DNA from: Maribacter halichondriae
Lineage (GTDB): Bacteria > Bacteroidota > Bacteroidia > Flavobacteriales > Flavobacteriaceae
Direction: 5' to 3'
Length of the DNA stretch: 64,000 nt
Assembly: GCF_027474825.1 (NCBI RefSeq)
Contig: NZ_CP107030.1
Span: 3,354,529 to 3,418,528 of the forward strand
Of the stretch, positions 34,312-44,102 are shown piece by piece. How positions within the stretch are numbered: position 1 is the first letter of the stretch; every line of letters starts with the position of its first letter. The notes under the pieces are model-generated. The model saw nothing but the letters and a program-made list of their open reading frames with translations, did no database searches and was not told the DNA's origin. The position numbers were made by a program, and so were the translations under genes.

Positions 34312-34461
34312 CCCGAAGTACGGAGTTGTCCGATGCCCCATTTATCCGGCTCCTTGTCGACTATTTACTTCGTTTGGATGCAATATTATCTAACTTTATC
34401 GTTATCAGGTTTAGGTCTCGACTTTCCCACAAAAGAATATTCTGATTTTCCTGGCAAAAGG

Positions 34462-37332
34462 ATGCATAAATGATTTTAAAATTACTTCCTTTCTCTTATT
34501 TAGCGTTGTCATAAGTGCACAACAAATCGGAGATTTTATTTCCGTACCGCCTGGTGCTCAGAATACTGATTTTGTCATTCCTTCTACACATCGTTTTCAA
34601 AAAATTATCGAAACCGGAGATGCCCTAACCGAAGGAGGGGCATTAAAGAACAAAAATGACTTTGCTGGCTATGTTCCTATTGCCGGGAGCAGTGAAAATG
34701 GATATTTAAGTATCAATTCGGAAGATGCTCCGGGCGGAGTTGCGATACTTGACATAAATTACAATTCAAATACAGGACTTTGGCAAACGACCCGATCGGA
34801 AGCAGTCAATTTTGACGGGGTTTTTGCTACTGCAGCCAATTGTTCAGGAACTGTTACCCCATGGAATACTATTATTAGCTGTGAAGAATATACGAGTGCT
34901 GAATTGGAAAATAATCCAAACCTTCCTTTTCAGGGGTCTAGAGATTTTAATAATGACGGATATGACGATTTTGGTTGGGCCATAGAAATTGATCCGGTCA
35001 CCAAAACGGTAATTGACCAGCCCGGCGGATTGAATGGCGCCGATAAGCTATGGGCCATGGGCAATTTCAAACATGAAAATGCAGCTATTCACAATAATCA
35101 GCGTACGGTCTACCAAGGGGCCGACGCAGCGATAGGCTACTTGTACAAATTCATTGCGGATAATGCACAAGACCTGAGTAGTGGAAATCTCTATGTATAT
35201 AGCGGGTCTAAAAATGGCTCTGGCAGTTGGATCCAGCTTGCCAATACAACACAGGCCGAGCAAAATTCAACGGTACAACAGAGTGCAAATCTGGGCGCTA
35301 CTGTCTTTGATGGTATTGAAGATGTTGAAATAGGCCTTGACGGCATGGTCTACTTTGCCGTAAAAAGTGAGAACAGGGTGTATCGTTTTCAAGATTCAGA
35401 TCCTATTTCTGGTACGACGGTTTCGCAAATGGAAACCTATGTTGGCAATGCAGCCTATAATGTGCAACACGAGGGGGTACATCAACTGTTGATTGGGGGC
35501 ATGGAAATGATAACCTTGCTTTTGACGGGCAGGGAAATTTATGGGTGATGCAAGATGCAAACGACTATCAGAATTATATATGGGTCGTTGAAAATGGTCA
35601 TTCACAAAGTAGTCCAAAAGTAAAGATATTCGGTCGTACACCCGTGGGCTCCGAACCTACAGGTATTACGTTTTCACCCGATTATCGTTTTCTTTTCATG
35701 TCGATTCAACATCCCAATGTCAATAATGGAAGTACAACACAGACCGATGCAGCAGGTAATGCAATAGCTTTTGATAAAGATCTTACACTTGTAATCTCGC
35801 TTGAAACACCTACAAATCAGACTTGGTATCTTGATGCTGATGGGGACGGTTATGCCGACCCGAATACGGTTTTAAGTCCCACGAGTCCTGGAGTGGGATA
35901 TACAAACAGTACTTTACTAACAACCGATTGCGATGATTCTAATTCCGCGATTAATCCAGAAACAGTTTGGTATCTAGATGGTGACGGCGACGGTTTTGCG
36001 GATCCTAATACCGTTCAAAGCTGCCTTAGTCCTGGCGCAGGATATTCCATAAACTCTTTGCCAACTACGGACTGCGATGATGATGATTCTTCTGTCAATG
36101 CACCTTCTACATGGTACTTGGATACCGACGGTGATGGTTTTGCCATTGCACCAACGATGGAAAGTTGCCAGAGTCCCGGTACGGGATATACAAGAAACAT
36201 TTTGCCGACCACGGATTGTGACGATAACGATGCTTCGGTGAACGCTTCGTCTACCTGGTATTTGGACGCTGATGGTGACGGTTTTGCTGTTCCAACCACT
36301 GTAGAAAGTTGCCAAAGCCCCGGACCGGGTTATACAATGACAGTGCTACCGACCACAGATTGCGATGACACAAATAATTCCATAAATGCCTCGGTAATCT
36401 GGTATTTGGATGCCGATGATGATGGATACGCCGCATCGGAAACCATAGAAAGTTGCTTTAGTCCCGGAACGGGCTATACAATGACCGTATTGCCCAATAC
36501 CGATTGCGATGATGGTGACGCAAGTATAAATATGGCGTCGACTTGGTACTTGGATGCAGATTTGGATGGTTTTGCAGACCCGAACACCATAGAGAGTTGT
36601 CAGAGTCCCGGTTCCACGTATACGCTAACTATATTGCCGACCACGGATTGTGACGATAACGATGCTTCGGTCAATACGCCTCTGATTTGGTATTTAGATA
36701 CTGATGGTGATGGCTTTGCTTCACCCGAAACCATAGAAAGTTGCCAAAACCCTGGAAATGGCTATACAACGTCTGTTTTGCCAACAACGGACTGTGATGA
36801 TAACAATGCAATGTTCAACCTAATATCAACGTGGTATTTGGACGCTGACGGAGATGGGTTTGCAGATCCTGAGACCGTTGAGAGTTGCCAAAGCCCTGGT
36901 CCTGGTTTTAAGACTACTGAGATGCCGACTACCGATTGCGATGATGCGGATGGGACGGTCAATTTAGAGGCGCTTTGGTATTTAGATGTGGACGATGATG
37001 GCTTTGCGGATGAACCACCAGTAACAAGCTGCAAAAGACCCGGTGATGCTTATACCTTGAGCGAATTACAGTTAAAAACTGACTTGGCCGATGAAAGGGG
37101 TATTCTCTATCCAAACCCGACCGATAGCGAAGTGTACGTGCAGCTCGATAAAACGTATGATGAACTGGATGTCGAAGTATTGACTTTGAACCGGGTTCAG
37201 GTATACGCTAAGAAGAGCACAAATACCGACATAATTTCCTTTGACCTCATTGGGCAGCCTACCGGGGTATACTTTCTACAGGTACGAAACCAAGGCGAAC
37301 GTATTGGTTTCTATAAAGTAATAAAGTTATAA
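34462..37332 (+). CDS. PhoX-like protein with nine MopE-type repeats and a T9SS type A tail (two frameshifts)
   Basis: Three parts of one chain, about 957 residues. (1) After a signal (ITSFLLFSVVISAQQ), a PhoX/DUF839-like catalytic domain: ISCEEY, KHENAAIHN, GGHGNDNLAFDGQGNLWVMQ, EPTGITFSPDYRFLFMSIQHP. PhoX is a calcium/iron alkaline phosphatase; activity here is inferred. (2) Nine repeats with WYLDxDxDGFA, CxSPGxGY and TTDCDD, likely calcium-binding, from 35821. (3) A type A sorting domain (YPNPTDSEVYV to GFYKVIKL) for T9SS export. Frames break at the A-run 34468-34470 (start region; restored MHKNDFKITSF, inferred) and the G-run 35495-35499 (restored LIGGHGNDN). Export via Sec then T9SS, unlike Tat-exported PhoX. 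Confidence 0.85.
35821..37060 (+). repeat. Nine tandem 144-nt coding repeats
   Basis: Repeat starts, taken at the codon before the TGG of WYLD, lie at 35821, 35965, 36109, 36253, 36397, 36541, 36685, 36829 and 36973. Every step is exactly 144 bases (48 codons). The last unit is cut short before TTDCDD. Units match well in protein sequence but vary at third positions, so they are old duplications under protein-level selection rather than a fresh expansion. Confidence 0.9.
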
Positions 37333-37403: not shown

Positions 37404-39982
37404 TCAATTATTACTTACATCCACCTTTTTTCTTAATAATTGCATCCTTCTTAAATCATCGGAAGCTTGTAGTAGTTTTTTCAACAGAGCGGGATTTAAA
37501 TCAGGGTTTGCCTCAATAAATTTTTGAAGAATCTGGTATGACTCCGGCGAATTATATTTACCTATGGTATTGTTCAGCCATCCTTTGGGAAAAAAGATAT
37601 CCCCTGTTTTTTGAATTTCGTCCAAAAGTTCCAAACTGGGTTTTAGATATTGAATGGTTTCCCTGTGCCGAAGTGGATGGTTCAAATAGTTTAAGGCACT
37701 GAGCGTCCAGTTCTCTTTTTCCCGGTTTTCAGCATCCTTCAAACTTTCAAAAAAAGCATTGCGAATTGCTGGTTCATTGGATAGCGACGGTAACAGAAAT
37801 TCAAAACGCTCGCGCTTGTCGGGGTTGCTAATATTCTTTTTTGCAATTTCAAGAATTTCAGTTGTGTCAGGGTGTTCGAAAAGGGCCAAGGTCATGGCCA
37901 TACGGGTATAATCATCCTCATTGAGCTTAAGATCCGGAATTATAATTGATTTGTTCCAAATTTTATAGAGGGTTTCATTTCCCGAATCGGAGTAGGCAAT
38001 AGATTGAAAGCTACCAAATAGTATCTTTTTAATATTTGGCGGCAGGTCGCTTTGTAGCTGTCGTATCAACTGATTTTCTAGATTGGATTGGTGTTTTTCC
38101 TGTTGTGCCTCGGTAAGGTATGTCCAAAAGAGCATGTTCAGATAGCCTGAAATCAGATTGACCAAAAGCTCGTTTTTTTCCGACAAGAGGCTTTTCTGAT
38201 AGAGGTTGAAGAGGGTTTCTGCCGCTAGATTTCCGTTCAACGCGTTTTCATAGGCATTGATGTAGGTGTAACCGCGGGCAACTTCATCCTCGATATCCAG
38301 AATGGCATCCAAATTTTCCGTATCGATGGGGAAAACGCCATAGCCAAGTCCGTTCGAATTATAGATAATAGCCTTTGGTTTTTTCAACCCAGCCGCGTTT
38401 TCAATAGCATTTTTTGGCTTTGAAACAGTTGCGGTTAGCTTGTGAACACTATCCGAGTAGACCATTGAAATGTCAAAGGTCTGTGGCCAGATACCATCGC
38501 TACCATCTTCTGCTTCTTGCATCAGTTCAAAAGTGTCAATGGTACCGTCGTCGTTATAAGTGATCTTTTCTTGAAACAAGGGTCTGCTCGAACGGTTGAC
38601 CCAGATTTCACTCCATTTTTTTAAATCGGTCTTCGTTTCCTTGTCCAACAGTTCCACGAGGTCGTTCCAGACCGCATTACCATATTCGTATTCCTTTATA
38701 TAGGCTTGAATTCCTTTTTGAAAAGATGCCGTTCCCATAATCGTTTCCAATTGTCGCATCATAATGGGTGCCTTGTTATAGATAATACTTCCGTAAAGGG
38801 ATCCCGCATCATTGAGGTTTTCCAAGTTTTGACGGATTGGATTCGTGCCCAAGGTCCGGTCTTCACCATAGGCCCTGGGGTAGTGCGTGACCATGAACGC
38901 TAGGTCATGATTGATGTCTGGAAAAACAGGATTAACGATTTTATCCGCCATAAAATTGGCAAATACTTCTTTCATCCAAACATCGCTGAACCAGTCCATG
39001 GTTACAAGGTCGCCGAACCACATATGGGCCGTCTCGTGCGCAATCAATTTGGCCCTCGAAAGTCTTTGGTTTTCGGTGGCGCTTTCATCAAGAAACAGCG
39101 CTCCTTCGCGATATTGTATTGCACCTACATGTTCCATGCCGCCGTATTGAAATCCAGGGATTGCCGCATAATCGAGTTTTTGAAATGGAAAGGGATAGGC
39201 AGTGTAGTCTTCTAGAAATGCTATAGATTGCCGGTGCGAATCAAAAATTTTGGAAGGCTCAAATCGATTTTGGCACTATCGTTTTCTCGATAGAGCAAGG
39301 TCATGTCAAAATTATCGCGACTTTCTGAAGCTTTTTGAAACTTACCGGAAACAAAGGAAAACAGATAGGTGCTCATGGTGTCGGTCGTGCCGAATTCGTG
39401 TATTGTAAAATCACCATTTTGTGAAGTACGTTTTTCCAGAGCACCGGAGAGCACTTGCCAGTCGTTAGGTGCCGTAATCGTCAAGGTGTATTTAGCTTTT
39501 ATATTCGGCTGGTCGAAACAAGGAAACAAAGTACGTGCCCGATCCGGCACCAAAAGCGTATAGAGGTATTCGTCATTTCGGTTGAGTGACAGTTCGCCCA
39601 TGGTAAATTCGATTTCGATTTCGTTGGTACCTACCTTGAGATGGTCTGGAGAAATTTTCAAATGTTCATTTTGATGGAAAATCTCACACTTGTTCCCGTT
39701 GGTTTTTAAGGATTTTAAAAGATTTGATTCTTCCTTGAAATCTAAAAGAAGCGGGGCATCGAGATTTGAAATGTCCAGTTTTAATTTCAGTACTGCGGAA
39801 ATCGGCGCTTCCTTTTGCTCAGGAATCTTAAAAGCAAGTCCATATTTGACATTTGAAACCTGTTCACTTCGATATTCGGCCAAGGCCAAGGGTACGCCTT
39901 CCTTTAGAAAAGTTTCGGCCGAAGGTGGGTTGCTACAGCACAATAAAAGAAGCGATACGAAAATACAATAAACACTTTTCAA
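37404..39982 (-). CDS. M1-family zinc aminopeptidase, lipoprotein form (frameshifted)
   Basis: A protein of about 860 residues. A lipoprotein-like signal (CIFVSLLLLCCSNPP) suggests anchoring. The N-terminal saddle domain is followed by the catalytic domain with GGMEH (variant of GxMEN exopeptidase motif) and the zinc site HETAHMWFGD with the distal Glu in MKEVFANF. The C-terminal helical domain is present. The two halves are in different frames: restoring one base in the A/T-run at about 39244-39251 gives PKIFDSHRQSIAFLEDYTAY. It releases N-terminal amino acids, probably in the periplasm. Confidence 0.88.
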
Positions 39983-40111: not shown

Positions 40112-40646
40112 TTATTTACCCTGACCGGCGTAGGTCTTCCAATCTTTCTCTTTGTAGATGTCATCACCAAAATACTTGGCGATTTCAAGAAAGGGCTTTG
40201 GTTTTTGATATCCCGGTACGGGTGACAGCATATTCATTTTTTCATCAAGGAAAATTGTCGTTGGGTAGCTCATTTTTCCTTGCATCAATGCCGCGGCGAA
40301 TTCATGGTATCCTTTTCTTCCCGAAGGAACAAATTTATAGGTCTTGCCTTTAAATTCGATAGGGTCTTTGCCTTCTCCATCCAATTTTACCATATAGAAG
40401 TTATCGGCCATATAGTTCGCCACTTCCGCGTTCTGAAAAGTATCCTTATCCATTTTTTTTGCACCAACCGCACCAATCGGTATAGACATCTACGAATATC
40501 TTCTTTGGATTTTTGTCCGTTTCGGCCAATTTGGCTGCTTCCTCCCAAGAAAGCCATTTTACTTCTTGAGCCTGAATTGTCAAGGGCAATGATACCATTA
40601 TAAATAGCAGAATAATTTTGATGGAATGTGGGGCCGATAGTTTCAT
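40112..40646 (-). CDS. Secreted thioredoxin-fold protein (frameshifted by one extra base)
   Basis: A protein of about 177 residues with signal peptide (IKIILLFIMVSLPLTIQAQ) and a thioredoxin-like domain with active site WCGWCKK. The frame breaks just after this motif: the T-run at 40453-40460 has one base too many; removing it gives WCGWCKKMDKDTFQNAEVANYM. The cis-Pro region is SYPTTIFLD. It acts in the periplasm on disulfides. This is the one site where the run is too long rather than too short. Confidence 0.85.
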
Positions 40647-40706: not shown

Positions 40707-41947
40707 TTATTTTACCAAGGACTTTTCCTTTTTAGGAACGAACAAATCCTTAACGTCCACTTGATTTCTGATCAGGTCATCAAAAGTCTCGCGTTCACGA
40801 ATCAAAACAGCCTTCCCCCTATGCCAGAGTACTTCGGGCGGTCGAAATCGGGAGTTATAATTACTCGCCATGGTAAAGCAATATGCGCCCGCATTTCTAA
40901 AACAAAGAATATCTCCTTCCGCAATTTCATTGATTCTTCTGTTGTTGCCGAAGGTATCCGTTTCGCAAATGTATCCTACCACGGAATAGTAACGTTCACG
41001 CCCATCAGGATTCGAAATATTGGAAATCGAATGGGTAGCCCCGTAAAGCATGGGCCTAATTAAGTGGTTAAATCCAGAATCAACACTGGCGAAGACTGTT
41101 GAGGTGGTTTGCTTGACCACATTCACCTTGGCCAAAAAGTAACCTGCTTCGCTGACTAAAAACTTACCCGGCTCAAAGGCGAGGGTCAATTCTCTGCCGT
41201 ATTCATTACAAAACTCATTAAAGCGATAGCTCAATTTTTTACCCAATTCTTCGACATTGGTTTCGATATCACCTTCTTTGTATGGTACTTTGAACCCACT
41301 GCCAAAATCTATAAAATCCAAGTTTTTGAAGTTTTTTGCCGTCTCGAAGAGGATTTCCGAAGCATATAAAAAGACATCGATATCCAGAATATCACTTCCC
41401 GTATGCATGTGGATCCCGTTGATATTCATTTTAGTCAAATCGACGATACGCAGCAAATGGGGAATCTGGTGAATACTGATGCCGAATTTTGAATCGATAT
41501 GGCCCACAGAAATATTTGAATTTCCCCGGCCATCACATGCGGATTGATACGGATACAAACTGGAATCTTTGGATGCTTGCTTCCAAATTGCTCCAGTATA
41601 GAGAGATTATCGATATTGATACGTACGCCAAGTTTTGAAGCTTCCTCAATTTCTTCAAGTGATACTCCGTTTGGGGTAAAAATAATATCTTGTGGTTCAA
41701 AACCCGCCAATAGACCTAGTTGTACTTCTTGAATTGAAACGGTATCCAAACCACTTCCAAGACTGTTCATCAATCGTAAGATCGTAATGTTCGACAGAGC
41801 CTTAGCGGCATAGTTCAGCTTCAATTTCTTGACACCGCTAAAGGCATTGGTCAATCTTTTGAATTGTGAAATTATCTTTTCAGAATCATACACATATAGA
41901 GGGTCACCGTATGTTTTTGCGATTTTCAGTAGATCGGCATTTTTCAT
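40707..41947 (-). CDS. lysA: Diaminopimelate decarboxylase (frameshifted)
   Basis: LysA makes lysine from meso-diaminopimelate, the last step of the pathway. The PLP Lys is in NYAAKALSN (about residue 49), the phosphate loop in HTGSDI, GSGFKVPYKEG and FEPGKFLVSEAGY, and the Cys/Tyr catalytic pair in YICETDTFG and GAYCFTMASNYNSR. The frame breaks at the C-run 41524-41527; one more base gives HVMAGGNSNISVGHIDSKFGI. The full protein is about 413 residues. As lysine synthesis is essential in most media, the break is almost certainly not real. Confidence 0.93.
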
Positions 41948-42117
41948 TTCGCTATCAATTTGGGGTAAATCTAACGCACTTATGGGTATCTTCCAAGAAT
42001 TTTATACTCAATTATAATTAATACAACAAAATGTTATGTTTGTAACAATTAAAATGATTGATACGATTTGTTGCTATGCATCATGAATTGTACATTTAAA
42101 ATGAAAAATATTGACTT

Positions 42118-42909: not shown

Positions 42910-44102
42910 ATGAACCTTCATGAGTATCAGGGTAAAGAGATTTTGGCAAGTTTCGGTGTACGCATTCAACGCGGCATCGTTGCGCATAATGCAAAGGAGG
43001 CCGTAGAGGCCGCAAAACAACTGACCGCCGAGACCGGAACGGGCTGGCATGTCATTAAGGCCCAGGTACACGCGGGTGGTAGAGGGAAAGGTGGTGGCGT
43101 AAAATTAGCCAAAAATCTGAAGGAAGTGGAAGAATTAGCCGGAAGTATCATCGGTATGAACCTGATAACTCCACAAACTTCTGCGGAAGGAAAAAAGTAC
43201 ACCAAGTTTTGGTCGCCGAAGATGTTTACTATCCCGGGGATAGCGAGACCAAGGAATTCTATATGTCGGTGCTTTTGAACCGCGGAACGGGAAGAAATAT
43301 GATTATGTATTCCACGGAAGGAGGAATGGACATCGAGGAGGTAGCCGAAAAAACACCACATCTTATCTTCACCGAAGAAATCGACCCTGCTGCTGGATTG
43401 TTGCCCTTTCAAGCACGTAAGATCGCATTCAATTTAGGATTGTCGGGTACCTCTTTTAAAGAAATGACCAAATTCGTATCATCTTTGTATAAAGCCTATG
43501 TTGAAAGTGATTCGAACATGTTCGAGATTAATCCCGTTCTGAAGACTTCCGACGATAAGATTATGGCCGTTGATGCAAAGGTTTCCATTGATGACAATGC
43601 GTTGTATCGAAGAAAGCAATATGCAGAAATGCGAGATTTGCGGGAAGAAAACCCTATCGAAGTCGAGGCGCGTATGGTCGGATTGAACTACGTCGATCTT
43701 GATGGTAACGTCGGCTGCATGGTCAATGGTGCAGGATTGGCAATGGCTACGATGGATCTTATAAAAATGGCCGGCGGGGAGCCAGCCAACTTTTTGGATG
43801 TAGGCGGCACCGCCGATGCCAAAAGGGTAGAAGAGGCTTTCAGGATTATTTTGAAAGACCCTGCAGTAAAGGCAATATTGATCAATATTTTTGGTGGAAT
43901 CGTGCGGTGTGACCGGGTAGCACAAGGTATAGTCGATGCCTATAAAAATATGGGGGATTCAATTAAGGTACCGATCATAGTTCGATTGCAGGGTACCAAC
44001 GCCGAATTGGCCAAAGAGATTATTGATAATTCTGGTCTGGCCGTACATTCAGCGGTGCAATTTCAAGAAGCCGCTGATAAAGTGAAAGAAGTGTTGAACT
44101 AG
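42910..44102 (+). CDS. sucC: Succinyl-CoA synthetase beta subunit (frameshifted)
   Basis: SucC with SucD forms succinate and ATP/GTP from succinyl-CoA in the TCA cycle. The protein of about 398 residues has the ATP-grasp domain ([52 protein letters not shown]) and a CoA-binding-partner C-terminal domain ([13 protein letters not shown]). The frame breaks at the A-run 43191-43196; one more A gives [19 protein letters not shown] strong terminator follows; sucD is not adjacent, as in many flavobacteria. Confidence 0.95.

Follow-up and report, generated by a model that had tools for sequence, protein, structure and literature searches.

Gene structure and reading frames

The window, the whole 64,000-nucleotide stretch of Maribacter halichondriae DNA that was analysed, carries at 34470-37332 a gene that encodes first a hydrophobic signal, then a PhoX-type domain and an array of nine repeats, and last a T9SS tail. 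The features are as follows.

34470..37332, + strand: whole gene, from the ATG matching the relatives' start to the stop; in two frames in the present assembly
34470..34519, + strand: Sec-type signal peptide, a hydrophobic run ending in ...VVISA followed by QQ, with no twin-arginine and with a probable frameshift just past the start codon
34520..35820, + strand: PhoX-type six-bladed propeller (PF05787), split over two frames; fold taken from the model of the intact relative L034
34841..34888, + strand: NC...CEE motif, equivalents of PhoX Cys179 (34841) and Glu193/Glu194 (34883, 34886)
35072..35125, + strand: HEN and YxGxD motifs, equivalents of PhoX His272/Glu273 and Asp292
35312..35314, + strand: Gly replacing the PhoX active-site Arg385; the Glu387 equivalent is retained at 35318
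35363..35365, + strand: Lys at the PhoX Thr403 position, invariant within the T9SS clade
35473..35479, + strand: frameshift site, a five-G run
35509..35712, + strand: equivalents of PhoX Asp479 (35509), Glu532 (35653), and His551 (35710)
35824..37065, + strand: nine acidic WYLDxDGDGxA...C...DCDD repeats of 48 aa each (eight full, one partial)
37099..37329, + strand: T9SS type A C-terminal sorting domain

The first-pass annotation treated 34462-37332 as one gene. The domain architecture bears this out, but the single open frame does not stand, as alignment of intact relatives places the gene in two frames. The N-terminal part of PhoX occupies 34463-35473 (ORF 34415-35548) and the remainder 35476-37332 (ORF 35461-37332), and the frame switches between 35473 and 35476, at GGGGG. 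Upstream of 34904, the N-terminal frame lacks a start codon. The ATG at 34470 that matches the start of the relatives is out of frame with the downstream sequence in the window, and a second frameshift probably adjoins this start codon.

A real frameshift, with phoX a pseudogene in this strain, would account for the two frames meeting at 35473-35476 and for the start being out of frame, but we regard this as highly improbable. The shift falls within five consecutive G, no other break interrupts the repeat array, and both of the other genomes from the genus have the gene as a single long frame (868 and 760 codons). In the syntenic stretch shared with relative L036, four of ten matched genes (phoX, a 177-aa gene, lysA, and sucC) are in two frames in the window and in a single frame in L036, and sprA of this genome is split as well. 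Assembly error is the likeliest cause of the broken phoX frame, because the relatives are single-frame and three neighbouring genes are broken likewise. The three are the 177-aa gene (40115-40646), lysA (40710-41950), and sucC (42910-44102), all whole in relatives. An M1-type aminopeptidase gene (37404-39982) is also broken across frames. Gene calls from the present assembly need caution because neighbouring genes are divided between frames.

PhoX-type propeller and metal-site residues

PhoX enzymes are among the major microbial phosphatases. The PF05787 (PhoX) profile of Pfam scores above its cut-off of 24 in both frames of the window gene (105.1 bits, 7.1e-30; 41.6 bits, 1.2e-10), and intact relatives of the same clade score 117-154 bits. 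No second PF05787 gene was found in this genome.

The fold was tested on an AlphaFold model of the intact relative L034 (995 aa), used in place of the broken protein of the window. Block means of pLDDT in this model are mostly 75-96 over residues 21-450, which form the propeller (the lowest blocks are 55 and 63), fall below 50 over residues 449-875, which include most of the repeats, and return to about 60-80 along much the greater part of the tail. Foldseek placed Pseudomonas fluorescens PhoX (3zwu) first at 6.8e-24, with the next unrelated fold at 7.3e-8, and VIA-align superposed the model on 3zwu with Z 31.8 and 2.4 A over 388 residues (next match, Z 24.2). As modelled, the propeller fold is that of PhoX.

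PhoX residues C179, E193, E194, H272, E273, D292, E387, D479, E532, and H551 align with identical residues in the window in a profile-to-sequence alignment. We take Glu273, Glu387, Asp479, and Glu532 of PhoX to be metal-site residues. The equivalents of the catalytic cluster (C179, E273, D292, E387, D479, and E532) are retained in nearly all relatives listed; the His551 position is variable, with Ala or Asn in four of 31 relatives. In PhoX, the iron has a thiolate ligand (PMC4223295), and R385 and D292 are counted among the active-site residues (PMC11098088). The window retains D292 and has Gly in place of R385. The PhoX-like domain of the earlier annotation is thus upheld by PF05787 in both frames and by the modelled fold. 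A non-PhoX propeller or absence of the catalytic metal ligands had been named as grounds for rejecting it; the structure predicted for L034 has the PhoX fold, and none of the mapped metal-site residues is missing.

Export signals

Two profiles identify the C-terminal sorting domain over their cut-offs: TIGR04183 of NCBIfam (type A; 31.5 bits, 1.3e-7, cut-off 23) and PF18962 Por_Secre_tail of Pfam (30 bits, 6.2e-7, cut-off 27). This confirms the T9SS tail that had been proposed. The genome has 18 TIGR04183 tails over the cut-off among the 19 matches listed, and the SprA translocon is present (TIGR04189, 2788.7 bits). The break in sprA (2804401-2811532 of this genome) lies close to the N-terminus, and a different frame gives a second match. 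The domain search suggested earlier for PhoX, MopE, and Por_Secre_tail recovered PhoX and the tail over cut-off; MopE (PF11617) stayed under its cut-off.

The N-terminus of the window protein, though frameshifted, shows no twin-arginine motif, and RRx[FLIVM] within the first 40 residues occurs in none of 39 T9SS-clade proteins. Together with the hydrophobic N-terminus, this agrees with the Sec-type signal of the first reading. As translated, four of six lipoprotein-type PhoX proteins have a twin-arginine motif.

Exchange of Arg385 and Thr403

Among the 31 distinct T9SS-type relatives first compared, the Arg385 position is Gly in 30 and Ala in one, and the Thr403 position is Lys in all 31. Eight added proteins (one of the same genus, and seven that a later search across the phylum brought in) agree, which brings the count to 39 of 39 with Gly/Ala and Lys. 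All seven Arg-type PhoX proteins, six lipoprotein-type members of the same family (L022, L023, L024, L026, L028, and L030) plus L032, have Arg and Thr. Because all 39 proteins were retrieved through similarity to the window gene or to relative L034, the 39 of 39 is a property of the clade and not a sample of all PhoX. They include several multi-domain proteins and a few near-copies (e.g., L041/L048), and three (L033, L044, and L057) are cut by a contig end past the propeller. Dropped from the comparison were a 103-aa fragment (L021), a broken frame (L049), the window gene itself (L081), shorter or duplicate copies of other loci (L004-L010, L012, and L019), and copies of L035, L051, and L056 (L078, L080, and L088).

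A further PF05787 class (L025, L027, L029, and L031; 615-617 aa) is without the NC (Cys179) and RPE motifs and was excluded from both counts; L025 has a T9SS tail. This class is possibly a degenerate or altered PhoX.

Active-site type and export route coincide, as Gly/Ala and Lys occur with no Tat motif, in contrast to Arg and Thr in the lipoprotein type. The Lys of the clade may stand in for Arg385. In the L034 model, strands 283-288 and 294-298 of the DSSP string imply a hairpin that would put the Lys beside the Arg385 site; by strand register it would lie beside residue 283, and its side chain could point away from that site.

Repeat array

The nine repeats begin at 35824 and then every 144 bases, so that a spacing of exactly 48 aa occurs eight times. 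The pattern is WYLDxDGDGxA...SC..PG.GY.....TDCDD...., and D4, D6, D8, D35, C36, and D38 are invariant in a 24-row triplet alignment of the window and four relatives. By sequence, this invariance is far beyond chance. The repeat region has 79 acidic and only 4 basic residues in 414.

The first-pass annotation called these nine MopE-type repeats. Nine DxDxDG/DCDD starts are present (eight full repeats and one partial), but MopE is a resemblance only: PF11617 reaches 9.4 bits in the window against a cut-off of 27, and the Pfam label there is Excalibur. In relative L051, PF11617 exceeds the cut-off (32.5 bits). MopE has a copper site (PMC3423442). The window repeats are like MopE/PF11617 and thrombospondin-type DxDxDG repeats in that DxDxDG is followed by DCDD, in tandem, in secreted proteins. 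They differ from MopE/PF11617 in scoring under the PF11617 cut-off, and the copper site of MopE is presumably not part of such DxDxDG/DCDD repeats. Within the order, 16 of 196 genomes (this genome included) have repeats of the same kind in other large ORFs.

DxDxDG is a calcium ligand set known from many secreted proteins (PMC3123361), and the repeats are putative calcium-binding units. That they are merely a passive, disordered linker in which calcium has no role appears unlikely. Model confidence is low over the repeats, and close relatives without them join PhoX straight to the tail, as such a linker would allow. A passive linker would drift, however, and the invariance of the candidate calcium ligands and of the DCDD cysteine over 24 triplets, together with eight spacings of exactly 48 aa, counts against it. 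A model of a repeat triplet had a mean pLDDT of 69.6 and no PDB match at E 10, which does not establish a new fold.

Distribution of the family

In the family, 35 of 199 genomes match the N-terminal part of PhoX (E 0.001), and in the phylum 15 of 395 match at E 1e-20. The ten best non-self matches at 60% identity or more divide into five with repeats and five without. In the propeller tree, 11 of 32 proteins bear repeats and form one cluster, with three state changes needed; the repeat array may have a single origin within this tree. A simple motif count gives 5-10 repeats in those repeat-bearing proteins that are intact. PhoX with a T9SS tail and no repeats is common among the relatives, and other members have PKD domains (L014 and L084) or nothing (L037) between PhoX and the tail. 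The domain combination had been described as unusual; this applies to the repeat array, whereas PhoX with a T9SS tail is not unusual in Bacteroidota.

Gene neighbourhood and other phosphatases

In close relatives L033, L034, L036, and L052, guaB is found no more than about 1.2 kb upstream; a methyltransferase directly upstream is conserved in L033, L035, and L036. More distant relatives have unrelated neighbours, e.g., leu genes. No Pho-regulon, phosphate-uptake, or MauG neighbour was recognised in the flanks of 15 loci or the ORFs of 10 loci, a weak negative because ORFs were judged without profile searches, by their first 50 residues and their similarity to ORFs of the window. When five upstream regions were aligned, no clear conserved block appeared past the start. 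An ORF of at least 1764 aa with a signal-like start lies directly downstream of the PhoX-repeat gene at L053:8708-13999.

PhoA (PF00245) has no match in this genome at E 0.001, subject to the caveat of frameshifts. The genome has two PhoD matches and a strong PF01663 match, which we presume could be PafA. The phosphate scavenging suggested by the first-pass annotation gains no support from the gene neighbourhood, where guaB, a methyltransferase gene, leu genes, and further unrelated genes are found; a scavenging role for a PhoX-like enzyme is plausible.

Comparison with known PhoX proteins

The protein is related to P. fluorescens PhoX (3zwu, 4a9v; PF05787) by the whole-propeller fold, as seen through the L034 model, and by the conserved metal-site residues. 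It differs in having a shorter domain, a Sec-type instead of a Tat signal, a T9SS tail, a repeat stalk, and Gly for Arg385 and Lys for Thr403.

In Flavobacterium johnsoniae, PhoX (Fjoh_2478) is reported to be a lipoprotein whose gene shares an operon with a MauG-like gene, to be phosphate-repressed and strongly induced by phosphate depletion, and to retain nine of ten active-site residues (PMC8115612; PMC8812569). Loss of this PhoX lowered inducible activity, and expression of it alone in P. putida gave no activity (PMC8812569). A review repeats this account and names no T9SS PhoX in its PhoX passages (PMC13211072). The window protein is likewise a Flavobacteriaceae member of PF05787, with a predicted place at the cell envelope. 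By the published description of Fjoh_2478, the two are related but separate, as the window protein is T9SS-tailed and has no recognised MauG-like partner. The inactivity of F. johnsoniae PhoX alone in P. putida counts against assured activity of the window protein.

Psip1 of Prochlorococcus offers another comparison. It is an active propeller phosphatase with Fe and Ca in which Lys replaces PhoX Arg385, and it has no overall sequence identity to PhoX (PMC11098088). The window protein shares the loss of Arg385 but, unlike Psip1, can be recognised as belonging to PF05787. In the literature searched, which included few subscription papers, neither a PhoX exported by T9SS nor one with such repeats was found.

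Proposed function

We consider the protein to be probably a PhoX-family phosphoesterase of the cell surface, with a calcium-dependent stalk that keeps it at a distance from the cell. The Sec-type signal, suggested by the N-terminus and by relatives without a twin-arginine motif, would carry it to the periplasm, where the six-bladed propeller would fold and, given the residues seen, bind the PhoX metal cluster. The T9SS would then move the protein across the outer membrane by means of its C-terminal tail. Once the tail has been cleaved off, the repeats would remain next to the surface anchor as a long and highly acidic spacer; calcium on their DxDxD/DCDD clusters would make this spacer rigid, so that the enzyme stands away from the cell. 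Hydrolysis of phosphate esters would be the most likely reaction, with an altered phosphate-binding position (Arg385 to Gly, and an invariant Lys at the neighbouring Thr403).

The phosphatase-like catalyst of the first-pass annotation is supported by the PhoX fold and the mapped metal-site residues, but the active-site Arg385 is missing from the whole clade. Because of this loss and of the absence of twin-arginine motifs in all 39 proteins, phosphatase activity is likely but not assured. The same residues raise the alternative that the clade is no longer a phosphomonoesterase and that loss of Arg385 and gain of Lys have turned it toward a different ester (a diester, a sulfate, or a sugar-linked phosphate) or a different set of metals. 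This is on balance doubtful. The contrast between Gly/Ala and Lys throughout the clade and Arg and Thr in all six lipoprotein-type proteins and L032, and the accompanying change in export route, point toward it. The remaining mapped metal-site residues are nevertheless retained, and the activity of Psip1 indicates that Lys can serve, though here it is at another backbone position. A non-catalytic surface propeller, such as an adhesin or calcium-phosphate binder that grips mineral or polymer by its metal site and acidic stalk, would suit the 79 D/E against 4 K/R of the array and the occurrence of like repeats in other large ORFs of the order. We find it very unlikely, as binding alone would not demand the catalytic-cluster residues that nearly all relatives listed retain. 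A surface phosphoesterase is accordingly the reading that we prefer.

Use of Tat by PhoX has been speculated to allow iron insertion in the cytoplasm (PMC4223295). We infer that the T9SS clade would load iron outside the cytoplasm or use other metals. A tentative scheme, which as a whole we think possible but unlikely, is of a Bacteroidota-wide PhoX clade that moved from Tat to Sec and T9SS, assembled its iron-calcium cofactor outside the cytoplasm (or abandoned iron), and in the same step transferred the phosphate-binding charge from Arg385 to a Lys on the neighbouring strand. The repeat branch would then have added a calcium-binding stalk as a spacer and as a concentrator of the calcium that the enzyme needs. 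A clade that retains the mapped metal-site residues yet is exported by Sec and T9SS would directly test the iron-in-cytoplasm idea for Tat. The Arg-to-Gly and Thr-to-Lys exchange, fixed in all 39 clade members (one with Ala) and absent from the Arg-type proteins, is a specific, testable residue pair. If the clade is counted as PhoX in metagenomes by PF05787, what its members really catalyse bears on estimates of the phosphatase capacity of the sea.

Two very large Flavobacteriaceae proteins with PhoX were also seen, of 2632 aa at L055:2779-10674 (+ strand, genome G117) and 2636 aa at L054:7547-15454 (- strand, G084). In L055, a single chain carries a PhoD-like domain (PF09423, 4.3e-9), four Laminin_G_3 domains, PhoX, and a T9SS tail; L054 is similar by eye. 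No solved structure matched the N-terminal PhoD-like part of L055 by sequence. In L055, two enzymes, one phosphodiesterase-like and the other phosphomonoesterase-like, would share a single surface protein, which would be a notable combination.
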